From Bacteroidota bacterium (lineage in GTDB: Bacteria > Bacteroidota > Bacteroidia > B-17B0 > Aurantibacillaceae): DNA of 64,000 nt. A model generated the notes under the pieces. That model saw only the letters and a list, made by a program, of their open reading frames with translations. It ran no database searches and had not been told where the DNA came from. This document shows, in pieces, positions 53,482-63,463 of this stretch; positions within the stretch are counted from its first letter, which is position 1, and each line of letters opens with the position of its first letter. The position numbers and the translations under genes were made by a program. The DNA is taken from the NCBI GenBank assembly GCA_018267475.1, contig JAFDYI010000008.1, positions 42,911-106,910 on the forward strand, written 5' to 3'.

Positions 53482-53509
53482 ATGAAACCCCGCAAAAGCG
53501 AGGTTTCAT
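53482..53509 (-). terminator. Terminator-like hairpin after the PorV-like gene, inside the greA leader
   Basis: ATGAAACCCCGC and GCGAGGTTTCAT (12-bp arms, one G-U pair, AAAA loop on +), followed by a T-run on the - strand. It can terminate the upstream operon. It also lies at the very start of any transcript from the -7 box at 53523-53516. Confidence 0.75.
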
Positions 53510-53515
53510 TTGATA

Positions 53516-53523
53516 CAAAGATA
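53516..53523 (-). promoter_or_regulatory. -7 box of a greA promoter
   Basis: TATCTTTG on the - strand matches TAnnTTTG exactly. GTTG 18 bases upstream is a one-mismatch -33 element lying in the 3' end of the PorV-like gene. Confidence 0.5.
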
Positions 53524-53538
53524 CGAATTTATTTTTAC

Positions 53539-54657
53539 TTACAACGTTACGCGAATACCGAATGTGTTTACGCCGGCAAAAGCCGTGTTGGTAAAGCGAT
53601 ACGAATAATCTAAGCCTACATTTGATTTCTTTTCTTTACCAAAAGGTATTTGTACCGTAGCTCCAAAGCTTGGTCCGGTAAGAGTACCGGTGGTTGGAGG
53701 AGGTGAATAGGATAGCGAGGCGTTGTTGGTAGATTGTCTTTCTATGGCATAGCCGCCGCGCACCATCAAAAAGCGTCTGATGGCAATTTCGGTTCCAATG
53801 CTAAAAATATCGTTTGTAAAGGAGTTAGAAGTAAAGTTAGCTGCTACCGTAATACGGTAATCTTTTTTAAAACCCGATGAATCTTTGGTAAGGTAAAAAT
53901 CGTAAGCACCGCCTATGTTTAGCATAGAAGGCAGGTTGAAGCTAGATGATTTGTTATCAAAAGAGGCGGAATAACCGGCTAACGTTCCGTTGTTTAGGTT
54001 GGTGGTAAACGACAAACCATCACCGGCGTAAGTCATTTTAGGGCCTACGTTTCTTAAAGCAATGCCTATGTGAATTTGGTCGTATTTACCGGTCATGTAT
54101 TGAATACCTGCATCTAAAGCCACCCCGGTAGATTTTACATTACTCAGGGCTTCTTGAATAACGCGTATAGAAGCGCCTCCATAGATGTTATCAGAAAACC
54201 CTTTAGCGTAAGACAAAGCCACGTTAATTAGCGAAGGACTAAAAGTAGAGCCCGTACCTTCGGGTTGGTCGGTAGTGGTAATGGGTATTTGCCCGGCGCT
54301 CATAGAGAACACGTTGATACCAATAGCTCCGGTAGAGCCTACGTGCTGTGTTAAACCAAAATTATTGATGCTTACCCCCGAGCCGCCTAACCACAAAGTG
54401 TGGGTAAACAATACTTCGGTTTTGCGAGTAAGAGCCGTACCGGCAATGTTAGAGAACATAGCCTCCAAGCCTCTTACGCAAGATGTGTTGGCATTGGCCC
54501 AACCGCTAGAACCGGCATAAGGGTTTATCAACAACTCCGAAGCCCCTGCCGATCCTGCCCTGTCGGGGTTACCCGCATAGGAAGCTACAGGCAATGCGGC
54601 CATGGCTGTTATCAAGGCGCTTGCAATTATTTTTTTAGTTGTATCTTTCATTTCCAT
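53539..54657 (-). CDS. PorV/PorQ-family outer-membrane barrel protein
   Basis: A 372-residue exported barrel of the FadL-like PorV/PorQ (DUF3308) family. The signal peptide is IIASALITAMAALPVASYAG. RAGSAGASELLINPYAGSSG is the conserved N-terminal segment just after it, where PorV-type proteins carry a D-R-x-G-x-A-G block. ALDAGIQYMTGKYDQIHIGI, ALRNVGPKMTY and IRRFLMVRGGYAIE are strand pairs typical of the barrel. In type IX secretion PorV shuttles cargo by its C-terminal domain. This copy sits directly after a giant exported protein and a TonB receptor, suggesting a dedicated partner. Its exact PorV versus PorQ subtype is not resolved. Confidence 0.85.
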   Translation of the reverse strand: MEMKDTTKKIIASALITAMAALPVASYAGNPDRAGSAGASELLINPYAGSSGWANANTSCVRGLEAMFSNIAGTALTRKTEVLFTHTLWLGGSGVSINNFGLTQHVGSTGAIGINVFSMSAGQIPITTTDQPEGTGSTFSPSLINVALSYAKGFSDNIYGGASIRVIQEALSNVKSTGVALDAGIQYMTGKYDQIHIGIALRNVGPKMTYAGDGLSFTTNLNNGTLAGYSASFDNKSSSFNLPSMLNIGGAYDFYLTKDSSGFKKDYRITVAANFTSNSFTNDIFSIGTEIAIRRFLMVRGGYAIERQSTNNASLSYSPPPTTGTLTGPSFGATVQIPFGKEKKSNVGLDYSYRFTNTAFAGVNTFGIRVTL

Positions 54658-54683
54658 ATCTAAACTATTTATTTTTTGTATTT

Positions 54684-54740
54684 CTTATGATATAGCCTTG
54701 TTCCTTTTTTAGTTTGGGCAGCAAGGCTATATTTCATAAG
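54684..54740. other. Imperfect 17-bp hairpin between giant protein and PorV-like genes
   Basis: CTTATGATATAGCCTTG (54684-54700) pairs with CAAGGCTATATTTCATAAG (54722-54740), allowing a 2-base bulge, across a 21-base loop. It sits downstream of the upstream gene's start region boundary, that is between the giant-protein stop and the PorV-like start reading leftwards from 54763 to 54658. No good T-run follows, so it may stabilise or attenuate the operon mRNA rather than end it. Confidence 0.6.
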
Positions 54741-54763
54741 CATATTTTATTTATGTTCCTATA

Positions 54764-57700
54764 TTAGTATGATTGCAAATCGTAAGGGCGCATCACGCCA
54801 AACCATTTTAATGTTCTAGTACCTATGCCCGGTGCGTCCACATGCAGGATATACAAACCACTGGCTATTTGTATGTTGGCCGAGTTATGCAAATCCCAAT
54901 CTAAATAGGTATCGCTGTTGTCTTTTTGCAATACGCGTATCAAGGTGCCCGAAAGGGTATAGATGCTAATGGTGCAATTTACCGGTAGGTTAATAATTTT
55001 CACACGCAAATCAATACGAGTGGTTTCGTACACATCGTGCGAGTAGTACGGGTTGGGCACTATGTTGATCATAGCCAAAGCTGCCTTAGCCGTACCTGCT
55101 TGATAGATGCTGGCCACCGCCGATGCGGTACTAAATGAGTACATCGGGAAGTTGCCGTTTTGTGGAGTAGTAGCCACATCAGAAGGCAAGCCTGCTACGG
55201 TAGTATAGCTTAGAGGTGTCATTGTAAATGTGCTTAAATTAGCCGTATTCGAAGAGCTGGGGATATTAACACTAGTTACAGCAGGAGAGGCTACTGTTGA
55301 TAAACCGTATCTAAAAGGTTTAGGCACACGTATCTGAACTTTAGCATCGCTGGGTATATTTGTACACCCTCCGGCTGCTTTACTTAAATCCACCGAAGAC
55401 AAGGGCATGGACACCCACATAACATCTTTGAAAAACTCGGCCAGTAAGCCCCATTTATTTTTTCGTTGAGCAACTGATAAAGAATTATATTGAGGCCAAG
55501 ATGTGTTAGGTGAAATGCTTGCCGGCATGCCTCTAAGCATTTGGTAAGAGCTTGCCCCCGCATCATAGCGTCGTACATCGCTAGGCACTACATCGGAACC
55601 AAAAGTGAAATTACCGTCCGCGTTATGGCCTAGTACGTAGATGTAGTGCATACCTCCATTTACAACTGTCCCTGCCGAATTGGTGTAGGTAGCCGTAGGG
55701 TTCCATAGCATATCCCTACCGTTGTTAATACTATCCATAGAATTTTCACCAAAAACGATGTTCAATCGCTCGCCGGTTTCCACATTGATGGCATAACCAG
55801 GGAACCAACTCATGCTGCTGTCGTTAGTAAGCAATCCATCGGCGCTGTTAAAGCCTGCATCACCATTTTTACGACCAAATTTATCTACTGAAGCCGCATG
55901 ACGCAATTGCCATTTATAAGAGATGCCGGTAGCCGGATCTATATTAGCCGTTACTCCTGAATTGGGGGCCATATCTACCACAGGGCAACGAGTCCATTTG
56001 GTTTGATCGGCCGTAAGAACTACATCCACACTACTTAACAAACGTGTATCAAGGTTGTTACTAGAACCCAACTCTGACGATGCAAAAGAAGATGCAATCC
56101 CTACCGGAAGGAAGCCGGGATAACTAGCGTTCGGGTTTACAAACCTAAAGGGAGCCCAAGTGCCTCCACACACGCCGCTCCACACCCTACCAGGATCACC
56201 AAAAATAGTAGTGGTTTTTCCTCCTCCCCCAACAATAGGGAAGGTTTCATTAATATCAAAAGGCGATACCAATTTGTTTGTTCCTGACAGTATCCAGTTT
56301 TGCGGCGTACCATCTACATCTTGAACCCCGCTTAGCCAAGTACTGTTCAAAGAAGAAGCCAACAAATCGCCCGGCAGCGTTTGTCCGTATGCATAGGCAG
56401 GTGATGACCATAAAAAATATCTTGCTGTAACCTGCGGATCGGTAACTTGTTTTAGCGACACCGAGAAACCTAAAGACTCGTTATTTAAGCCGGTAATAAT
56501 TTTTTCCTGCGATGTTCTCAAACCCTCGTCTGATAGCCAGGTTTTGGTTACTTGATTGCCTGACAAATCGGTATAACTGCCCGTCATATACCATTTAATG
56601 GTATCGCTGTTTTTCACTTTTCCGGTATCTATCAAAGCGGTAGAAGCCACCGGAGGATTTCCGTTGTAGTACCACGAAACAACTCCGGTATTAGATGTAT
56701 TGGCAGTAGCCGTTACCATACGTATGGTAAAATTACCTTTTACTATACGCAAGGGATCAACTACTTTTACATATACCGGCGCTCCATTTCCTTGATAGGT
56801 AATGTTTTGCGCTCTTCCGTTAGGAGCATTTAATATATCTTGCACACTTTGGTCGGTTAGATACAGCGCATTACCTCCATTACCTTGCCCTTCTATACGG
56901 GTTACCGGCATGCCGGCTCCATAAGAAGAGTTCATAATAGTACCGTTGTTTTCTACACTGGGGTTATGTGGTATGGCTGAGTATAATTTTACGTTGTTTC
57001 TACCTTGCAAGTAGGGTTTTTTCTGCCCGTTCATATCCCCTGAGCTGGGATCGTTGTAAACAACTACCGTAGTAGCTGTACCGCCTATAACAGTAGGGGT
57101 AGCCACCCCTGTGGGGGATACAGTAGGTTTGTATGGTAAAAAGTTATTGTAGGCATAAGCCACCGCCATAAAGTAATAGGTTTTAAAGTTTACCAAAGTT
57201 TTGTTAGATACAGCAAACAAATCGGTATTTAAGCTAAAGGAGTTTTGAATGCCGGCATCCGCTCCACTTACCATCAATTGAGGCACCGTACCCAAGGTAG
57301 GATCGGAATTGTAATTGATAAGCTGGCTTACTCCGTCTTTAATATCGCACTGAAACACCAAGCGAGCGCGGTCGGTATTATATAAATCCGATACGGAAAC
57401 GGTTTGGTCAACCAACTGGTATATTTTATAGCCTTGAAAGCGATATACTTTATCCAACACACCGGTAAAGGTAGAGGGGGCTGTTATATTGGGATCTATA
57501 TCGGCATAACGATTGGCCTCGTAGTTATTGCTGGTATAAGGGTTGTTGGTAAGCGTAATTAATAGTTGTTGGTTCAGTTCCTGTATGGTTAAATCGGGTG
57601 CATCGGGTCCATCTAATACTTTAAAACAATTATCAAACAAAGCCTGTGCTTTATCATCGGCAGCCAACATCATGGGTATGGGAGCTAAAAAGCTGGCGGT

Positions 57701-59461
57701 GTTAGAGCGCGCCCAAGGCAAGCCAAAAGTTACGTAGTTAACGGCACCGGGCTGTAAGGTAAAAGGCCCTGCCGATTGTAAAAATCGTCTATCTCCAAAG
57801 GCATCTCCAGGGGTGTTATACTCCGTCCAATTAGGGTAAGCCGCCGGGGGTGCTATAGGTGTACCGGGCGCACTGGTAGCTCGGTAACCGGAAGGTTTAT
57901 AGCCAAACGTCCAACCTTGAGGATCGCTGGTGCCTGGAAATAAAAACTTACAAGCCGGATTGGCGGCAGATACCGCATTTAAACCCAAGTTTCCGTAGGT
58001 CATAGGAACAGCTCCTATTTCCCACACTCCATTCATTAGATTATAGTAGGCTTGGGCACCTGAAGGATTTCCATTAATAGTACCATTTTGATTATTATAA
58101 TAAGTAAAGCGCGACATAACGCATTGCTCCGGAAAGCCGTGTGGATCGTTATCAGCAATAGCAGGAGGGCAGGCAAAAGTACCGTTTGGGCATTGAGACC
58201 AAGAGCAGTCCACACAACCATCGCGGTCGTTATCAATGCTGTCGCCTATATCGGCATAAGGGCCTTGAAAAAAGTCGCAACCTATAGCAGGCAGTTTATC
58301 GTGATAACCTATTTGCCCGTTTGCATCTGGGTCATAGTTTTCACCGTTGTATTGATAACCCAAACCGCGCGACACATCGCAACCTACATAGTCATCTAAA
58401 TAATAACCCAAATCGCAATCATTCCATACCGAAAAATAGGTTTTAGTAAGTATGTTTGAACTCCAGTTAATAATTTCATAGTTATAAAAACTCATATCGT
58501 TCAACTCGTCGCTGGTAGCAAACTCAAAGGCCTGTCCTCTAATCTCTACGCCTATGTTGTGTACGCTTCCTGTTTCGGTATGTTTGTTTCCGTTATCGTT
58601 AAACACAAAAAAGTTGGTTACATCGCCAAATAAAAAGCGCACGCAGTGCCCGCGCGGTACCGGCTTAGCGTTAGGGTTGATGTTGTATGCCGGGTAATCA
58701 CCGGTAGCATAATTATAAGTACCATCGCCATTCATATCGTAGTAAGGAGCCAAATAATTCATAGGCGATATGGCATTAGCTAAAGTAGAATTATACAGGG
58801 TGGTAGCTAAGGGATCGGTACCGTTTAAGGTGCTGGCAGGTATGTTTACATTCACTCCTGCTCCCATATAATCGCTATTACCGGGGTAATCTTTTATCCA
58901 AGTAGGGGTGCTGGGGTCGGCCGTATGGTATTGATTCCAGTAAGCATAAAAGTTTACTACATCTTGGCGGTTGAACTGCCACACTTTATCATAAGCCTGG
59001 CAAATAGTTTGATTGGTACTTAAATCAACCGGATTAAGAGGCCCCGGCCAAAAGTCAAAGCCATTTTGGCGATAGGTCATAGCCCCTACGCGCAAGTCGG
59101 TACCTACATAGCCACCAAACCAAAGCGAGCCGGCAAACATAGAGTAGGAGTTACTTCCTTTGGGTATCTCGTACTTAGCTATACTGGCGGCGTAATCCCA
59201 CCACATATCCCCATCGGTAAGAATGAGAGTACGCACGTTATTTAGCGAAATTTCTTGCTTGGTTTTTCCTGGTTGGCAGTTGTTTGCCATTACCGAATTA
59301 TTGCCCCAATTGGCGTTTTTATGCCCTTCGCCATTGCCTCCCGTTCCGGGTAGGTTTTCGCGCGCTTGCAAACTGCCCATTGTTAATCCAAAAGAAAGCA
59401 CTACAAAGCCTGCTTTCAAGGCGTAACCAGTAGTTGTTTTTGCTTTTGTTTTCATGATCAT
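54764..59461 (-). CDS. Giant exported surface protein with type IX secretion-like C-terminus (1565 aa)
   Basis: A 1565-residue exported protein with a signal peptide ending near ...LTMGSLQA. Calcium-site-like loops occur at about 244 (DMNGDGTYN) and 407 (DIGDSIDNDRDGCVD), the latter in a Cys-rich patch (DCSWSQCPNGTFACPP) like thrombospondin type 3 repeats. YRFQGYKIYQLVD near 674 begins a fibronectin-III-like stretch. The last 95 residues (NIVPNPYYS, then NLPVNCTISIYTLSGTLIRV, DWDLHNS, IASGLYILHVDAPGIGTR) resemble a type A type IX sorting domain but end with an extra KWFGVMRPYDLQSY. I recall this ending from other Bacteroidota proteins. No catalytic motif was seen, so an adhesin or surface-layer role is most likely. 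Confidence 0.75.
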   Translation of the reverse strand: MIMKTKAKTTTGYALKAGFVVLSFGLTMGSLQARENLPGTGGNGEGHKNANWGNNSVMANNCQPGKTKQEISLNNVRTLILTDGDMWWDYAASIAKYEIPKGSNSYSMFAGSLWFGGYVGTDLRVGAMTYRQNGFDFWPGPLNPVDLSTNQTICQAYDKVWQFNRQDVVNFYAYWNQYHTADPSTPTWIKDYPGNSDYMGAGVNVNIPASTLNGTDPLATTLYNSTLANAISPMNYLAPYYDMNGDGTYNYATGDYPAYNINPNAKPVPRGHCVRFLFGDVTNFFVFNDNGNKHTETGSVHNIGVEIRGQAFEFATSDELNDMSFYNYEIINWSSNILTKTYFSVWNDCDLGYYLDDYVGCDVSRGLGYQYNGENYDPDANGQIGYHDKLPAIGCDFFQGPYADIGDSIDNDRDGCVDCSWSQCPNGTFACPPAIADNDPHGFPEQCVMSRFTYYNNQNGTINGNPSGAQAYYNLMNGVWEIGAVPMTYGNLGLNAVSAANPACKFLFPGTSDPQGWTFGYKPSGYRATSAPGTPIAPPAAYPNWTEYNTPGDAFGDRRFLQSAGPFTLQPGAVNYVTFGLPWARSNTASFLAPIPMMLAADDKAQALFDNCFKVLDGPDAPDLTIQELNQQLLITLTNNPYTSNNYEANRYADIDPNITAPSTFTGVLDKVYRFQGYKIYQLVDQTVSVSDLYNTDRARLVFQCDIKDGVSQLINYNSDPTLGTVPQLMVSGADAGIQNSFSLNTDLFAVSNKTLVNFKTYYFMAVAYAYNNFLPYKPTVSPTGVATPTVIGGTATTVVVYNDPSSGDMNGQKKPYLQGRNNVKLYSAIPHNPSVENNGTIMNSSYGAGMPVTRIEGQGNGGNALYLTDQSVQDILNAPNGRAQNITYQGNGAPVYVKVVDPLRIVKGNFTIRMVTATANTSNTGVVSWYYNGNPPVASTALIDTGKVKNSDTIKWYMTGSYTDLSGNQVTKTWLSDEGLRTSQEKIITGLNNESLGFSVSLKQVTDPQVTARYFLWSSPAYAYGQTLPGDLLASSLNSTWLSGVQDVDGTPQNWILSGTNKLVSPFDINETFPIVGGGGKTTTIFGDPGRVWSGVCGGTWAPFRFVNPNASYPGFLPVGIASSFASSELGSSNNLDTRLLSSVDVVLTADQTKWTRCPVVDMAPNSGVTANIDPATGISYKWQLRHAASVDKFGRKNGDAGFNSADGLLTNDSSMSWFPGYAINVETGERLNIVFGENSMDSINNGRDMLWNPTATYTNSAGTVVNGGMHYIYVLGHNADGNFTFGSDVVPSDVRRYDAGASSYQMLRGMPASISPNTSWPQYNSLSVAQRKNKWGLLAEFFKDVMWVSMPLSSVDLSKAAGGCTNIPSDAKVQIRVPKPFRYGLSTVASPAVTSVNIPSSSNTANLSTFTMTPLSYTTVAGLPSDVATTPQNGNFPMYSFSTASAVASIYQAGTAKAALAMINIVPNPYYSHDVYETTRIDLRVKIINLPVNCTISIYTLSGTLIRVLQKDNSDTYLDWDLHNSANIQIASGLYILHVDAPGIGTRTLKWFGVMRPYDLQSY

Positions 59462-59485
59462 ACTTTTTATGTTAATACTTTTATC

Positions 59486-62400
59486 TTAAAAATCAAATTG
59501 AACTCCTATGCGTATCATGCGAGGGGCGCTGTAGTAGCGGCCGTCCATCAATTTCGCATTGTATAAAGTTTGGAAACCATAACCGTATCCATACGATTGT
59601 GCGTATTTTCCGTTTAACTCTTGCATACCGTATTGAGAACTTAGATAGCCATCGTCTTTAGGGCTGCCGGTATAGCTGTGCACCTGCACAATGTTCATGG
59701 TGTTAAACAAATTCATTACCTGCAAATAAAAGTTTAAGTTACCAAAGCGGGCTTTGTCATCTCCTTTTTCTTTGCTGCTAAGGCGTACGCTAAAGTTGCG
59801 GTCTATACGCATATCTACACGAAACTGCCAAGGCAAGCGCGATCCGTTTAAGCTACCGGAAAGGTATTGGTTATTATTATTCCCTACCTCTACATCAGCA
59901 ATAGCAGGATATCTTTGTGAGTACGGCAAGCCCGAACCCAAACGGCCTACCAGGTTGATACCGAAGTTTTTAAGCCATTGTACGGTTTGCGATTTATCTC
60001 CTTTTTTAAAGTCGGATTGAGGGCCGCGATAATCTTTGCCTTGTCCAAAGCGGTAATCTAAAGTAAGTACAAAGTTGTGGCGTTGGTCGTAATCAAGCGG
60101 TGTGATCACACGCATATTGGGCTGACTGCTGTTAGCTAAGTTATAGCCTCCGTTGGCGTTAGAACCGGAACCTTCGGCAAACTGCAACGTATAATTGGCG
60201 TTTAAACTAAAACCACCGGTACGGCGCATTTGATATTCCAGCGATAAACCTTGTACGGTACCAAAGTCCATATTTCCATAAGTCATGTACGATACCGGGT
60301 AGGCTTGGTTTACACGGGTAATTTGCACCTGGTTACGCATTTCACGGTAAAAAGCCGATATTTTAAGAGCCGCACTTTTGCTTTCGTTTAGTATTTGGCT
60401 AAAGCCCAACTCATAATCAATGGTTTTTTCCGGTTTTAAGTTTCCGTTTCCTACTACAGCCCCTTGGTTGCTGGCTATGAAGTAATAATCTTGGGGGTTG
60501 GTACGGTTGTACGAAGTGTAAGGCGCTCCGTTGGCTCCATCGCTAAAAGAAGCCGGCGGACGTTGTACTAATATATCATAGTGGGCAAAGAAGTTCGCCA
60601 CATCGGATATAGGGAAAGAGAAAGCCACACGAGGCATCACGTTAATTTGTGGTTTGTAGGCTTGAAAGGCGGTATTAGAGTACGGGTTTTGGTCGTTTGG
60701 GCTTTTTAACCAAGGTTGCACGGCGCCCCCGCTGGCGTGCGCTATGATAGTAGGATCGGATATAGCCGCACCGTTAGCGTCGTACCACACCATTCCGGAA
60801 CGATAGCCCACAATTTGCATAGCCCCCCCGGCGCTTTGGGCAGCCGCGTTTTGCGCTACGTAAACCACCGCATTTTGAGGAAGGCTGGAAGGAATGGTTC
60901 CTTCATACTGGCCTTTTAATGAACTAAGGTCGGCAATGGTATAAGCGTCTTTTAATAAGAACGGATCTTTTAATACTTGTTGGTTGGCATCGTATCTATC
61001 TACACGCAAACCCACGTTAAATTTAATATCTTTAAAGTCAAATTTATCTTGTATGTAGCCGGCCATATACACGGGGGTAAAGGCGCCGCTGTTGCGGTCG
61101 TACACTTTATCGCCAAATTTATCGTAATGAAATTTGGTTAAGAAATCGTCAAAATTAGTTTTACCACTTAGGGGTTTTCCTGTAAAGTCATAACCCCAAG
61201 AGCTAACTACCTGTTGGCCGGAGTTAAGTAACTCATCAGGGGCAAACATACCTAAGTTTAATTGAGAAGGATTTACCGCATCTACATTTATATATTGAGT
61301 AGAGTTGGGATTATGGTCGCCGTTTACGCCAATTTGGTCGTAAAAGTTTTTAGAAAAAACCGATTGAGAAGCGGTGTTATCTTGTGTATTGTGTACCAAT
61401 ACTCCATAAGTAGAAGTAACCGGAGCACCTAATGTTTGGGTGGTGCTAATACCGTTATTTCCTGTAAGAGCAGGGTTTAGCACGTTAGGGGCGCTTTGGG
61501 TATATTGAGAATAAGTATAATATTGTTGGTTGGCCAAGTTAGCGGCGTTAGAAGCCGACGTATCGGTAGCAGCGGTATAAAGGTTTTGGTTGTGCATATT
61601 GGCCAACTGACGGGCGATAGCCCACAGGTATTTAGTGCTCACATCAAAACCACGCTCTACACGTTGGTCGTATTCTATACCAATCATCAAGTTGTGGTTT
61701 TTAATATCCGCTTGAAAGTTAGAGGTAATACGAAACATGGTATTGTTACGTAAAGAGTAGTTGTTTGTGGTATTGCCGGAGCTGCTGTATAAACCTTGTA
61801 CGTTATTAGGGGAGTCGCCGTTACGTAAACCTTGGTAGTTTTGCAACATGTACATATTGCTTATTTGCCCGTTAAACTGGTTATATACTTCGCTGGTATA
61901 ATTGGCCGCCAATGGGTTTAAGGTACCCGGTGTAAAATTAACGATAGAATCGGTGTATCCTTTTAAGTCATAAGCATTAACCTTTGAATAATGCCCGTTA
62001 GGCTGTTTCACCCATACTCCCGTATCTAATTGATAAATGGGAACTCGTTTTTCGTCAAATTTACCTACATAGCCGTAATTAAAGTAATTGTCTTTAAAGT
62101 GCTCGTCTTGCATCACAAATTTATAGGCATTGTAACTGGCCTGAAAGTTAAACGAAGCACGTTTGATAACCGATTGTGATTTTTCTTGCTCAGAAGCATT
62201 TTCAGAGCCGAACTGCTGTTGGAAACGCACATAAGCCCTTTTGGTATTTTCTATTACCTGTGGGTTGCTGGCGCTGTTAAACATTACGTTGTAAATAGAA
62301 AACTGGTGGTATTTGCTGTAATCCCAAGAACCACCTACGGTAATGGTTGTTTTGGGGGTAATAGCAAAGGTAATTTTAGGCGATAGGCGTATTTGCGTGA

Positions 62401-63463
62401 TGCCCACGTTAGGGCGTACTTTATTATTTACTAAATTATTAGGAGTTACAAAAGAGCCGGCTGTATAGTAGGCGCTGTTAGCCGAATTCCATAATAATGG
62501 ATTTTGTTGTATTTGAGCCATGGTGGTAGGATTTATTTGCTCTACGCCGGTAGCCCAAGGGCGGGGGTCTTTTTGATAAATAATCTCGCCCCCCATAAAG
62601 AAGCCTATGATGGGTTTTTTGGTTCCGGAAGAATCTTTTTTACTCCAAATAGGTCCGCCTATGCTAAAACCGCCAAAATTGTAACCATAGGGGTCGGTTC
62701 CTACATATTTATTATTACCATTAGCGCCATTACCGGAAGTAATACCCTCTACCCCGCCAAACCATTTAGGTTGTACCCCTCTGGTAGTGATAGATACCAC
62801 CCCACCGGTAGCATCGCCGTACTGTGCGGGTAAACCACCTAATATAACACTCATTTGCTCTACCGCGCTTTGAGGTAGGTTGTTGGTACCAATAGAGCGC
62901 TCGCCATCTACAAACACCGCTGTGTTATTGGCACGTGCTCCGCGCACGCGAATACTGGTTCCTGAACCGTTATCCATTAAGGTAACCCCCGCTTGAGTAG
63001 AGATGATTGAGTTTAATGTTTTGTCTGATTGATGTTGAAAACTTTCTCTATCTACCGTACCGCCTGATTTGGTATCTTTATCAATCAAATCCACCGCATA
63101 CTCGGTAACCACCACCTGGTCTAGGTTTACGCCCTCTTCGTTTGAAAGGGATATAGGTAGGTACACCGTTTTATTATCCAGTACTTCTACGCCTTTTATT
63201 TCTTGCTTTTGATAGCCTACATAAACAGCCTTTACCGTGTATTTACCGGCTACTAAGGGTTTAATCATAACGTTACCGTCCATGTCGGTAGTACCTACCG
63301 CTACTTGTATGTTATCTAACAATACAACTACGTTGGCAAAAGGTATGCCTTCTTTGGTTTTTTTATCGTTAAGAGTTACTTTTATGGCACCTCCGTTGCT
63401 CTGCGCTAAGGCGCTTACACTCATAAATACAAAGGCGGTAAGAAATAAATAAATTTTTTTCAT
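59486..63463 (-). CDS. TonB-dependent receptor with carboxypeptidase-regulatory N-terminus (1325 aa)
   Basis: Outer-membrane receptor with signal peptide MKKIYLFLTAFVFMSVSALA. Residues about 25-110 are a CarboxypepD_reg domain (LNDKKTKEGIPFANVVVLLD, GTTDMDGNVMIKPL). The plug domain follows (LNSIISTQAGVTLMDNGSGT, SIRVRGARANNTAVFVDGE, ILGGLPAQYGDATGGVVSI). The barrel fills the remainder, with YKPQINVMPRVAFSFPISDV and a C-terminal RIGVQFDF ending in the aromatic residue recognised by the BAM complex. No SusD homologue is adjacent, so it is not a standard Sus polysaccharide-uptake pair. The giant-protein gene begins 24 bases downstream, indicating one operon. Confidence 0.9.
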   Translation of the reverse strand: MKKIYLFLTAFVFMSVSALAQSNGGAIKVTLNDKKTKEGIPFANVVVLLDNIQVAVGTTDMDGNVMIKPLVAGKYTVKAVYVGYQKQEIKGVEVLDNKTVYLPISLSNEEGVNLDQVVVTEYAVDLIDKDTKSGGTVDRESFQHQSDKTLNSIISTQAGVTLMDNGSGTSIRVRGARANNTAVFVDGERSIGTNNLPQSAVEQMSVILGGLPAQYGDATGGVVSITTRGVQPKWFGGVEGITSGNGANGNNKYVGTDPYGYNFGGFSIGGPIWSKKDSSGTKKPIIGFFMGGEIIYQKDPRPWATGVEQINPTTMAQIQQNPLLWNSANSAYYTAGSFVTPNNLVNNKVRPNVGITQIRLSPKITFAITPKTTITVGGSWDYSKYHQFSIYNVMFNSASNPQVIENTKRAYVRFQQQFGSENASEQEKSQSVIKRASFNFQASYNAYKFVMQDEHFKDNYFNYGYVGKFDEKRVPIYQLDTGVWVKQPNGHYSKVNAYDLKGYTDSIVNFTPGTLNPLAANYTSEVYNQFNGQISNMYMLQNYQGLRNGDSPNNVQGLYSSSGNTTNNYSLRNNTMFRITSNFQADIKNHNLMIGIEYDQRVERGFDVSTKYLWAIARQLANMHNQNLYTAATDTSASNAANLANQQYYTYSQYTQSAPNVLNPALTGNNGISTTQTLGAPVTSTYGVLVHNTQDNTASQSVFSKNFYDQIGVNGDHNPNSTQYINVDAVNPSQLNLGMFAPDELLNSGQQVVSSWGYDFTGKPLSGKTNFDDFLTKFHYDKFGDKVYDRNSGAFTPVYMAGYIQDKFDFKDIKFNVGLRVDRYDANQQVLKDPFLLKDAYTIADLSSLKGQYEGTIPSSLPQNAVVYVAQNAAAQSAGGAMQIVGYRSGMVWYDANGAAISDPTIIAHASGGAVQPWLKSPNDQNPYSNTAFQAYKPQINVMPRVAFSFPISDVANFFAHYDILVQRPPASFSDGANGAPYTSYNRTNPQDYYFIASNQGAVVGNGNLKPEKTIDYELGFSQILNESKSAALKISAFYREMRNQVQITRVNQAYPVSYMTYGNMDFGTVQGLSLEYQMRRTGGFSLNANYTLQFAEGSGSNANGGYNLANSSQPNMRVITPLDYDQRHNFVLTLDYRFGQGKDYRGPQSDFKKGDKSQTVQWLKNFGINLVGRLGSGLPYSQRYPAIADVEVGNNNNQYLSGSLNGSRLPWQFRVDMRIDRNFSVRLSSKEKGDDKARFGNLNFYLQVMNLFNTMNIVQVHSYTGSPKDDGYLSSQYGMQELNGKYAQSYGYGYGFQTLYNAKLMDGRYYSAPRMIRIGVQFDF

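Follow-up and report, generated by a model that had tools for sequence, protein, structure and literature searches.

In a 64,000-nucleotide stretch of a Bacteroidota genome (assembly GCA_018267475.1, contig JAFDYI010000008.1, positions 42,911 to 106,910 of the forward strand, Aurantibacillaceae; referred to hereafter as the window), three genes lying head to tail on the minus strand encode a large TonB-dependent receptor, a giant surface protein predicted to end in a type IX C-terminal domain (CTD; the protein is hereafter the cargo) and a β-barrel of the PorV/PorQ family. This receptor–cargo–barrel triad recurs across the phylum, and its linkage is real and old. With slightly more confidence than doubt, we read it as a TonB uptake complex independent of SusD, in which the surface subunit would leave the cell through the type IX system, be retained on a barrel of its own and be held over the receptor. 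The open reading frame (ORF) list places all three genes at the exact positions given by a first-pass annotation of the window, which had already described close minus-strand genes for a receptor, a 1565-residue exported protein and a barrel (Table 1); the gaps between them are 24 bp (receptor to cargo) and 106 bp (cargo to barrel).

Conservation and inheritance of the triad

Relatives of the cargo were found in 92 of 100 relatives' genomes (E ≤ 0.001). For the window's class, loci were drawn from these genomes and from 80 contigs (Bacteroidales, Flavobacteriales, Cryomorphaceae, Crocinitomicaceae, Schleiferiaceae and others), and cargo ORFs of at least 1150 aa were counted (n = 133; compared over the last 300 residues, 126 are distinct, since some loci repeat the same genome). 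The order receptor–cargo–barrel is kept on one strand for 108 of the 133, with median gaps of 23 and 26 bp. As in the window, greA is the next gene in 97 of the 108, and a HIT gene then follows in 88, with five more cut by the locus end. Five large families of the class (f36, f41, f42, f15 and f22) gave weak cargo matches or none.

A profile built from the last 345 residues of the cargo was searched against 296 genomes of the phylum and found a cargo-domain match in 182. The matching proteins of the sister classes are ~1030–1300 aa long, mostly align over the CTD alone, and often number at least seven per genome. We sampled 74 sister-class loci holding 76 cargo ORFs (mostly picked in score order, so that strong matches are favored); 52 of the 76 stand in complete triads of the same order, with median gaps of 36.5 and 30 bp. 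The first-pass annotation had named an absence of conserved linkage between the three families as one observation that would speak against its reading; the triad was instead found across the phylum, in both samples. Because greA adjoins 97 of 108 class triads but follows 0 of 52 sister triads, the triad itself is the conserved unit, and we rejected GreA and HIT as functional partners (in the window, a hairpin also lies between the barrel gene and greA).

The cargo domain is found only together with the type IX translocon gene sprA, being matched in 182 of 228 sprA-positive genomes and in 0 of 68 sprA-negative ones (Fisher p = 2e-36, a value that ignores kinship, many of the listed sprA-negative genomes belonging to one family, f52). 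Within the first sample, sprA was found in 96 of 100 genomes, and the window's own genome (2.76 Mb in 37 contigs) holds SprA (2291 bits) and hence a type IX translocon. Since the cargo domain occurs only in sprA-positive genomes, export is almost certainly via the general type IX translocon, at odds with the self-contained secretion proposed at first; export of the cargo by the type IX system (SprA, CTD) is well supported.

Over the 52 sister triads, the distance matrices of receptor, cargo and barrel correlate pairwise at r = 0.91–0.92 (0 of 2000 permutations were as high), and for 39 of them cargo and barrel agree in their nearest relative. All three proteins share their nearest relative in another genome for five paralogous triads of two genomes (G161: L251, L255 and L257; G330: L213 and L214), and the two triads L193 and L240 of G173 are nearest to each other; within G131, L225 is consistent (nearest to L226), and the nearest relatives of the three L215 proteins are different members of a single subfamily. 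From the correlated distances and the matched nearest relatives it follows that the three proteins were inherited largely as matched sets.

Architecture of the three proteins

No Pfam family matched the cargo. Its structure was modeled over residues 366–1565 (mean predicted local distance difference test score, pLDDT, 80.8; predicted template modeling score, pTM, 0.76), and the model ends in the seven-stranded Ig-like fold of a type A CTD. Structure comparison of this modeled domain gave the PorZ CTD as the nearest match (Z 11.0, 2.3 Å over 90 residues), with further matches to the CTDs of PorU (Z 9.7) and mirolase (Z 8.3) and to the CTD of NucA held inside the translocon of the type IX secretion system (T9SS) (Z 7.8, 2.2 Å, 71 of 75 residues). 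The type A sorting model TIGR04183 scores 17.3 bits over the whole protein and 19.6 over the C-terminal part, below its cut-off of 23, and the PorZ equivalog scores 18.7 bits over the C-terminal part (cut-off 260, only the end of the model being matched), with no PorZ match for the whole cargo among NCBIfam models at E ≤ 1. The sorting-like end noted in the first pass is thus upheld by the predicted fold but not by the type A sequence model. Among family members, the CTD matches the PorZ model in 26 of 26, the type A model in 24 of 26 and the PorU model in 19 of 26 (E ≤ 0.1). Lys1552 is invariant in 41 family sequences; one conserved Lys of type A CTDs contacts PorV (PMC10994853), and Lys1552 may be its counterpart. 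The class cargos continue beyond the last CTD strand into a conserved extra tail: K..R..D is found among the final 14 residues of 126 of 133, and 120 of 133 end in F or Y.

The remainder of the cargo is described through its domains. The structure match lists are dominated by two folds, the FN3 domain (Table 1) and a sandwich of the N-terminal region, and say nothing about the middle of the protein. The second fold was recognized in a sister-class cargo (locus L196; full model, pLDDT 73.0, pTM 0.66), where residues 31–493 match the supersandwich domain of glycan phosphorylases, GH116 and cyclic glucan synthase (best Z 19.7, 3.4 Å over 255 residues). Class and sister cargo profiles (A1 versus A4) align end to end under hhalign (probability 100, 1018 columns), and the homologous residues of the window cargo (~63–615) are accordingly listed in Table 1 as a predicted supersandwich-type region. 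The putative calcium-type loops reported in the first pass (DMNGDGTY at ~242–249 and DNDRDG at ~411–416) can be seen in the protein sequence, at positions matching the family consensus.

Two more cargo relatives of ~950 aa are encoded in the window's genome (G000:C5:17420-18325 and G000:C1:4955-5980; L037 8989-11868 and L038 4652-7453, both on the minus strand). They share approximately residues 234–611 and end in canonical-looking type IX CTDs (..QKFVKE, ..QKFIKE), and neither receptor nor barrel adjoins them. Other solitary cargo genes, in loci L161, L164 and L165 (Crocinitomicaceae, Fluviicola and one unplaced Bacteroidetes metagenome-assembled genome), share a different upstream gene pair (~276–293 and 424–463 aa), possibly a second cargo partnership.

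The assignment of the barrel to the PorV/PorQ family, as first proposed, is confirmed by the subfamily model NF033709 (121.8 bits, cut-off 90). It scores well below the equivalog cut-offs of both PorQ (60.1 bits, cut-off 220) and PorV (45 bits, cut-off 250), and has no Pfam match at E ≤ 1, hence none to PF03349 (FadL family). The window's genome has its own PorV (473 bits), PorQ and PorV2, all away from the triad locus. Class barrels group together in the barrel tree (support 0.89); sister barrels are not separated from that genome's PorQ and PorV2 (support 0.54). The receptor scores above the Pfam cut-offs of PF13620 and PF13715 (CarboxypepD_reg-type), PF07715 (plug) and PF00593 (TonB barrel), and sequence search returned no PDB chain for it at E 0.001; nothing useful came from searching PDB sequences with any of the three proteins or the CTD profile.

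Table 1. Features of the triad locus (window coordinates)
Feature	Position	Strand	Basis
TonB-dependent receptor, 1325 aa	59486..63463	-	Signal peptide (read by eye), CarboxypepD_reg, plug, β-barrel; Pfam
Giant surface cargo, 1565 aa	54764..59461	-	Homologues in relatives' genomes and structure model
Cargo N-terminal region (~residues 63–615), predicted supersandwich homologue	57617..59275	-	Profile alignment to the L196 cargo region
Cargo FN3-like domain (~residues 615–834, with insertions)	56960..57619	-	VIA-align Z 8.0–8.5, 2.4–2.7 Å, ~90–98 residues versus FN3 domains
Cargo C-terminal sorting domain (~residues 1458–1565), invariant Lys1552	54764..55087	-	Fold and sequence-model matches
Conserved extra tail after last CTD strand, family pattern KWFGVMRPxDLxS[FY]	54764..54796	-	Class cargo ORFs
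PorV/PorQ-family β-barrel, 372 aa	53539..54657	-	NCBIfam NF033709
Terminator-like hairpin between barrel and greA	53482..53509	-	12 pairs, 6 G-C, then T run; consensus match

The single promoter first proposed for all three genes gained no support, as neither scan gave anything above chance: a sigma-70 search returned 20 sites (25.1 by chance) with nothing convincing upstream of the receptor, and a search for the Bacteroidota-type TTTG-N17-23-TAnnTTTG returned 8 (6.1 by chance), none upstream of the receptor. The hairpin is a consensus match only, the total of such sites not being above chance. A TATCTTTG box upstream of greA (53516–53523, minus strand) resembles the −7 element of Bacteroidota promoters, and suggests that greA has a promoter of its own.

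A candidate uptake complex and its alternatives

On the reading that we favor, the cargo would enter the periplasm by Sec and cross the outer membrane through the SprA translocon, using its CTD. Neither cleaved nor released, it would be held through the CTD and the conserved tail by its own PorV/PorQ-type barrel, and its ectodomain (supersandwich, FN3) would be placed over the adjoining TonB receptor as a ligand-binding lid or funnel, the part played by SusD or BtuG in other systems, with TonB driving the import of the ligand that the cargo captures. Retention on the barrel is likely because there is precedent for such anchoring: PorQ serves as the anchor of PorZ, and PorV as that of PorU, in the T9SS attachment complex of Porphyromonas gingivalis (PMC5562754), and type B cargos (SprB–SprF, PG1035–PorP) are anchored by a cognate FadL-type PorP/SprF barrel (PMC12618676, PMC9143113). 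The placement of the ectodomain on the receptor, as BtuG sits on BtuB, and the import of a ligand by the receptor are inferred by analogy.

As to the nature of this ligand, the glycan context is clear for one sister subfamily and absent for most. Three triads (L196, L209 and L256, in genomes G219, G243 and G319) have a GH16 plus malectin gene directly downstream, then GH3; L196 adds an SSF transporter and L256 an MFS transporter, and each has a CBM9 T9SS protein upstream. In L197 and L218 the gene directly upstream encodes a CBM4_9 type IX protein, and a peptidyl-prolyl isomerase gene lies downstream (immediate downstream neighbors form a near-complete set, n = 38, with two proteins of less than 200 aa left out; upstream and second-downstream neighbors are a set of 42 picked by hand). 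In a control of 80 of 100 randomly drawn non-operonic genes from the same loci, no GH or CBM family had two members among the matches listed. A β-glucan is the probable ligand in at least one subfamily of the sister classes; that of the window-type triad, beside greA and HIT, may be a common nutrient or cofactor.

Other genes also recur beside the sister triads. One or two proteins of ~430–460 aa come right after the barrel in many (L190, L192, L194, L217, L236, L241, L242, L247, L250, L255 and others), TPR proteins with multihaem cytochrome-like matches do so in 5 of 38 (e.g., L180 5146-7335, minus strand), and in several (L192, L193, L213) the gene just before that of the receptor encodes a DUF4397 protein.

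SusD, reported absent in the first pass, is indeed missing, with no Pfam match in the cargo and no SusD anywhere in the genome by whole-genome search. Among 158 sprA-positive sister-class genomes, SusD was absent from 46 of 65 with at least seven cargo matches, 8 of 32 with four to six, 19 of 45 with one to three and 0 of 16 with none. This inverse relation and the glucan-degrading loci go beyond the first-pass interpretation, which was partly supported overall.

A number of observations weigh against the uptake complex. The correlation behind the SusD relation (rho −0.46) ignores kinship, uses per-genome counts scored up to seven (seven meaning at least seven), and includes cargo matches that are not all triads; moreover, class genomes of family f43 hold the triad plus several to many SusD. 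The window operon has no nutrient gene, and most sister triads have no glycan enzymes beside them (immediately downstream, n = 38, are 12 GWxTD, 5 cytochrome/TPR and 3 GH16 proteins). A fold match to the supersandwich does not itself show sugar binding. The conserved tail is missing from the sister cargos of the polysaccharide utilization locus type (glucanase-linked). Eight of the 25 incomplete class loci have the locus end beside the cargo, and the remaining 17, which include two repeats, are exceptions, mostly a solitary cargo, with a receptor or a barrel only in a few; several sister-class cargo genes also lack a receptor or barrel. Finally, covariation between cargo CTD and barrel gave a top value of 0.719 against a mean null top of 0.726 (40 re-paired shuffles, from 93 effective sequences only, a depth that speaks neither for nor against contact). 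The first-pass suggestion that the cargo stays bound to its barrel fits the PorZ–PorQ and PorU–PorV precedents and the PorZ-like CTD, but gains no signal from covariation.

Cargo and barrel might serve display only, forming an anchored surface protein (an adhesin, or an S-layer-like or envelope-sensing protein) beside a receptor that imports something unrelated or signals. The FN3-containing, β-rich architecture of the cargo would suit such a role, the GreA/HIT neighbors in the window's class give no nutrient link, and solitary cargo paralogues exist, including the two with canonical-looking CTDs in the window's genome. We nevertheless consider display alone unlikely, as no complete triad lacks the receptor, which has diversified in step with cargo and barrel (r about 0.91), and three triads lie in glucanase loci.

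A role of the receptor in export, as a TonB-energized barrel that helps to assemble or pass the cargo, has a parallel in the TonB receptor Oar, on which Myxococcus depends to secrete PopC (PMC6434023), and the N-terminal CarboxypepD domain and the position of the receptor as first gene of each triad are in keeping with it. It is improbable, however, in that an exporter already exists, the cargo having a type IX CTD fold and occurring only with sprA, and the glucanase-linked triads point to import. Just as hard to credit is a PorZ/PorQ-like accessory of type IX attachment, in which the cargo would bind lipopolysaccharide or another surface glycan and help to anchor other cargos, with the receptor secondary: the CTD is nearest to that of PorZ and the barrel scores higher with PorQ than with PorV (60.1 versus 45 bits), but PorV, PorQ and PorV2 are already encoded elsewhere in the genome, the C-terminal part of the cargo reaches 18.7 bits against a PorZ cut-off of 260, and the receptor and the at least seven copies in sister classes are left unexplained.

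Relation to known systems and significance

The favored uptake complex shares parts with several known assemblies. PorZ–PorQ and PorU–PorV likewise set a type IX surface protein, with the nearest CTD fold, on a PorV/PorQ-family barrel (PMC5562754), but a TonB receptor is missing from them, PorZ has no match in the cargo outside the CTD, and those barrels score above the equivalog cut-offs that the window barrel does not reach. In the type B/SprF systems one cargo gene is followed by its own anchoring barrel (PMC12618676, PMC9143113), whereas the CTD here is type A-like and a TonB receptor is added; a type B cargo with SprF was rejected, since neither the type B CTD model (TIGR04131; PMC12618676) nor the PorP/SprF family is among the NCBIfam matches of cargo or barrel at E ≤ 1. 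SusCD/RagAB and BtuBG, the latter a pedal-bin-like complex of TonB receptor and surface lid (PMC10404256), also encode a TonB receptor with one large surface partner. In the window that place is taken by a type IX cargo that has a barrel of its own, not by a surface lipoprotein, and there are three genes instead of two; a SusCD pair was rejected because no SusD-family (PF07980) partner lies beside the receptor. In the Bacteroidota β-barrel assembly machinery (BAM) the FadL-family barrel BamG carries a surface lipoprotein, BamH (PMC12611786, PMC12578637), which is again a barrel carrying a surface partner, but no TonB receptor is listed among the BAM subunits in the extracts of these sources; BAM was rejected as BamG is FadL-family (PF03349) and the window barrel has no Pfam match.

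The triad is most aptly classed as a new composite, in which a cargo–barrel pair of the type IX system is combined with a TonB receptor. Such an arrangement appears to be undescribed so far: we found no paper on such a triad in the open PMC literature, though one may be in print elsewhere. Going further, the triad may represent an ancestral kind of outer-membrane importer in the phylum, driven by TonB and forming a class of its own, with a lid installed by the type IX system and a private barrel, filling the SusCD role in many sister-class bacteria and largely lacking in well-studied families; we put this forward tentatively, with doubt outweighing confidence.

SusCD-type complexes are the textbook route of glycan capture in Bacteroidota, as type IX secretion is for their surface proteins. 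The triad would join SusCD-like uptake to type IX secretion, and would add a third kind of cargo–barrel partnership to the type IX system. The class families with weak or no cargo matches include many well-assembled genomes, and this may be why the triad has been overlooked. It is a possible marker for glycan loci missed by SusD-based searches, and could explain the feeding of many uncultured Bacteroidota.

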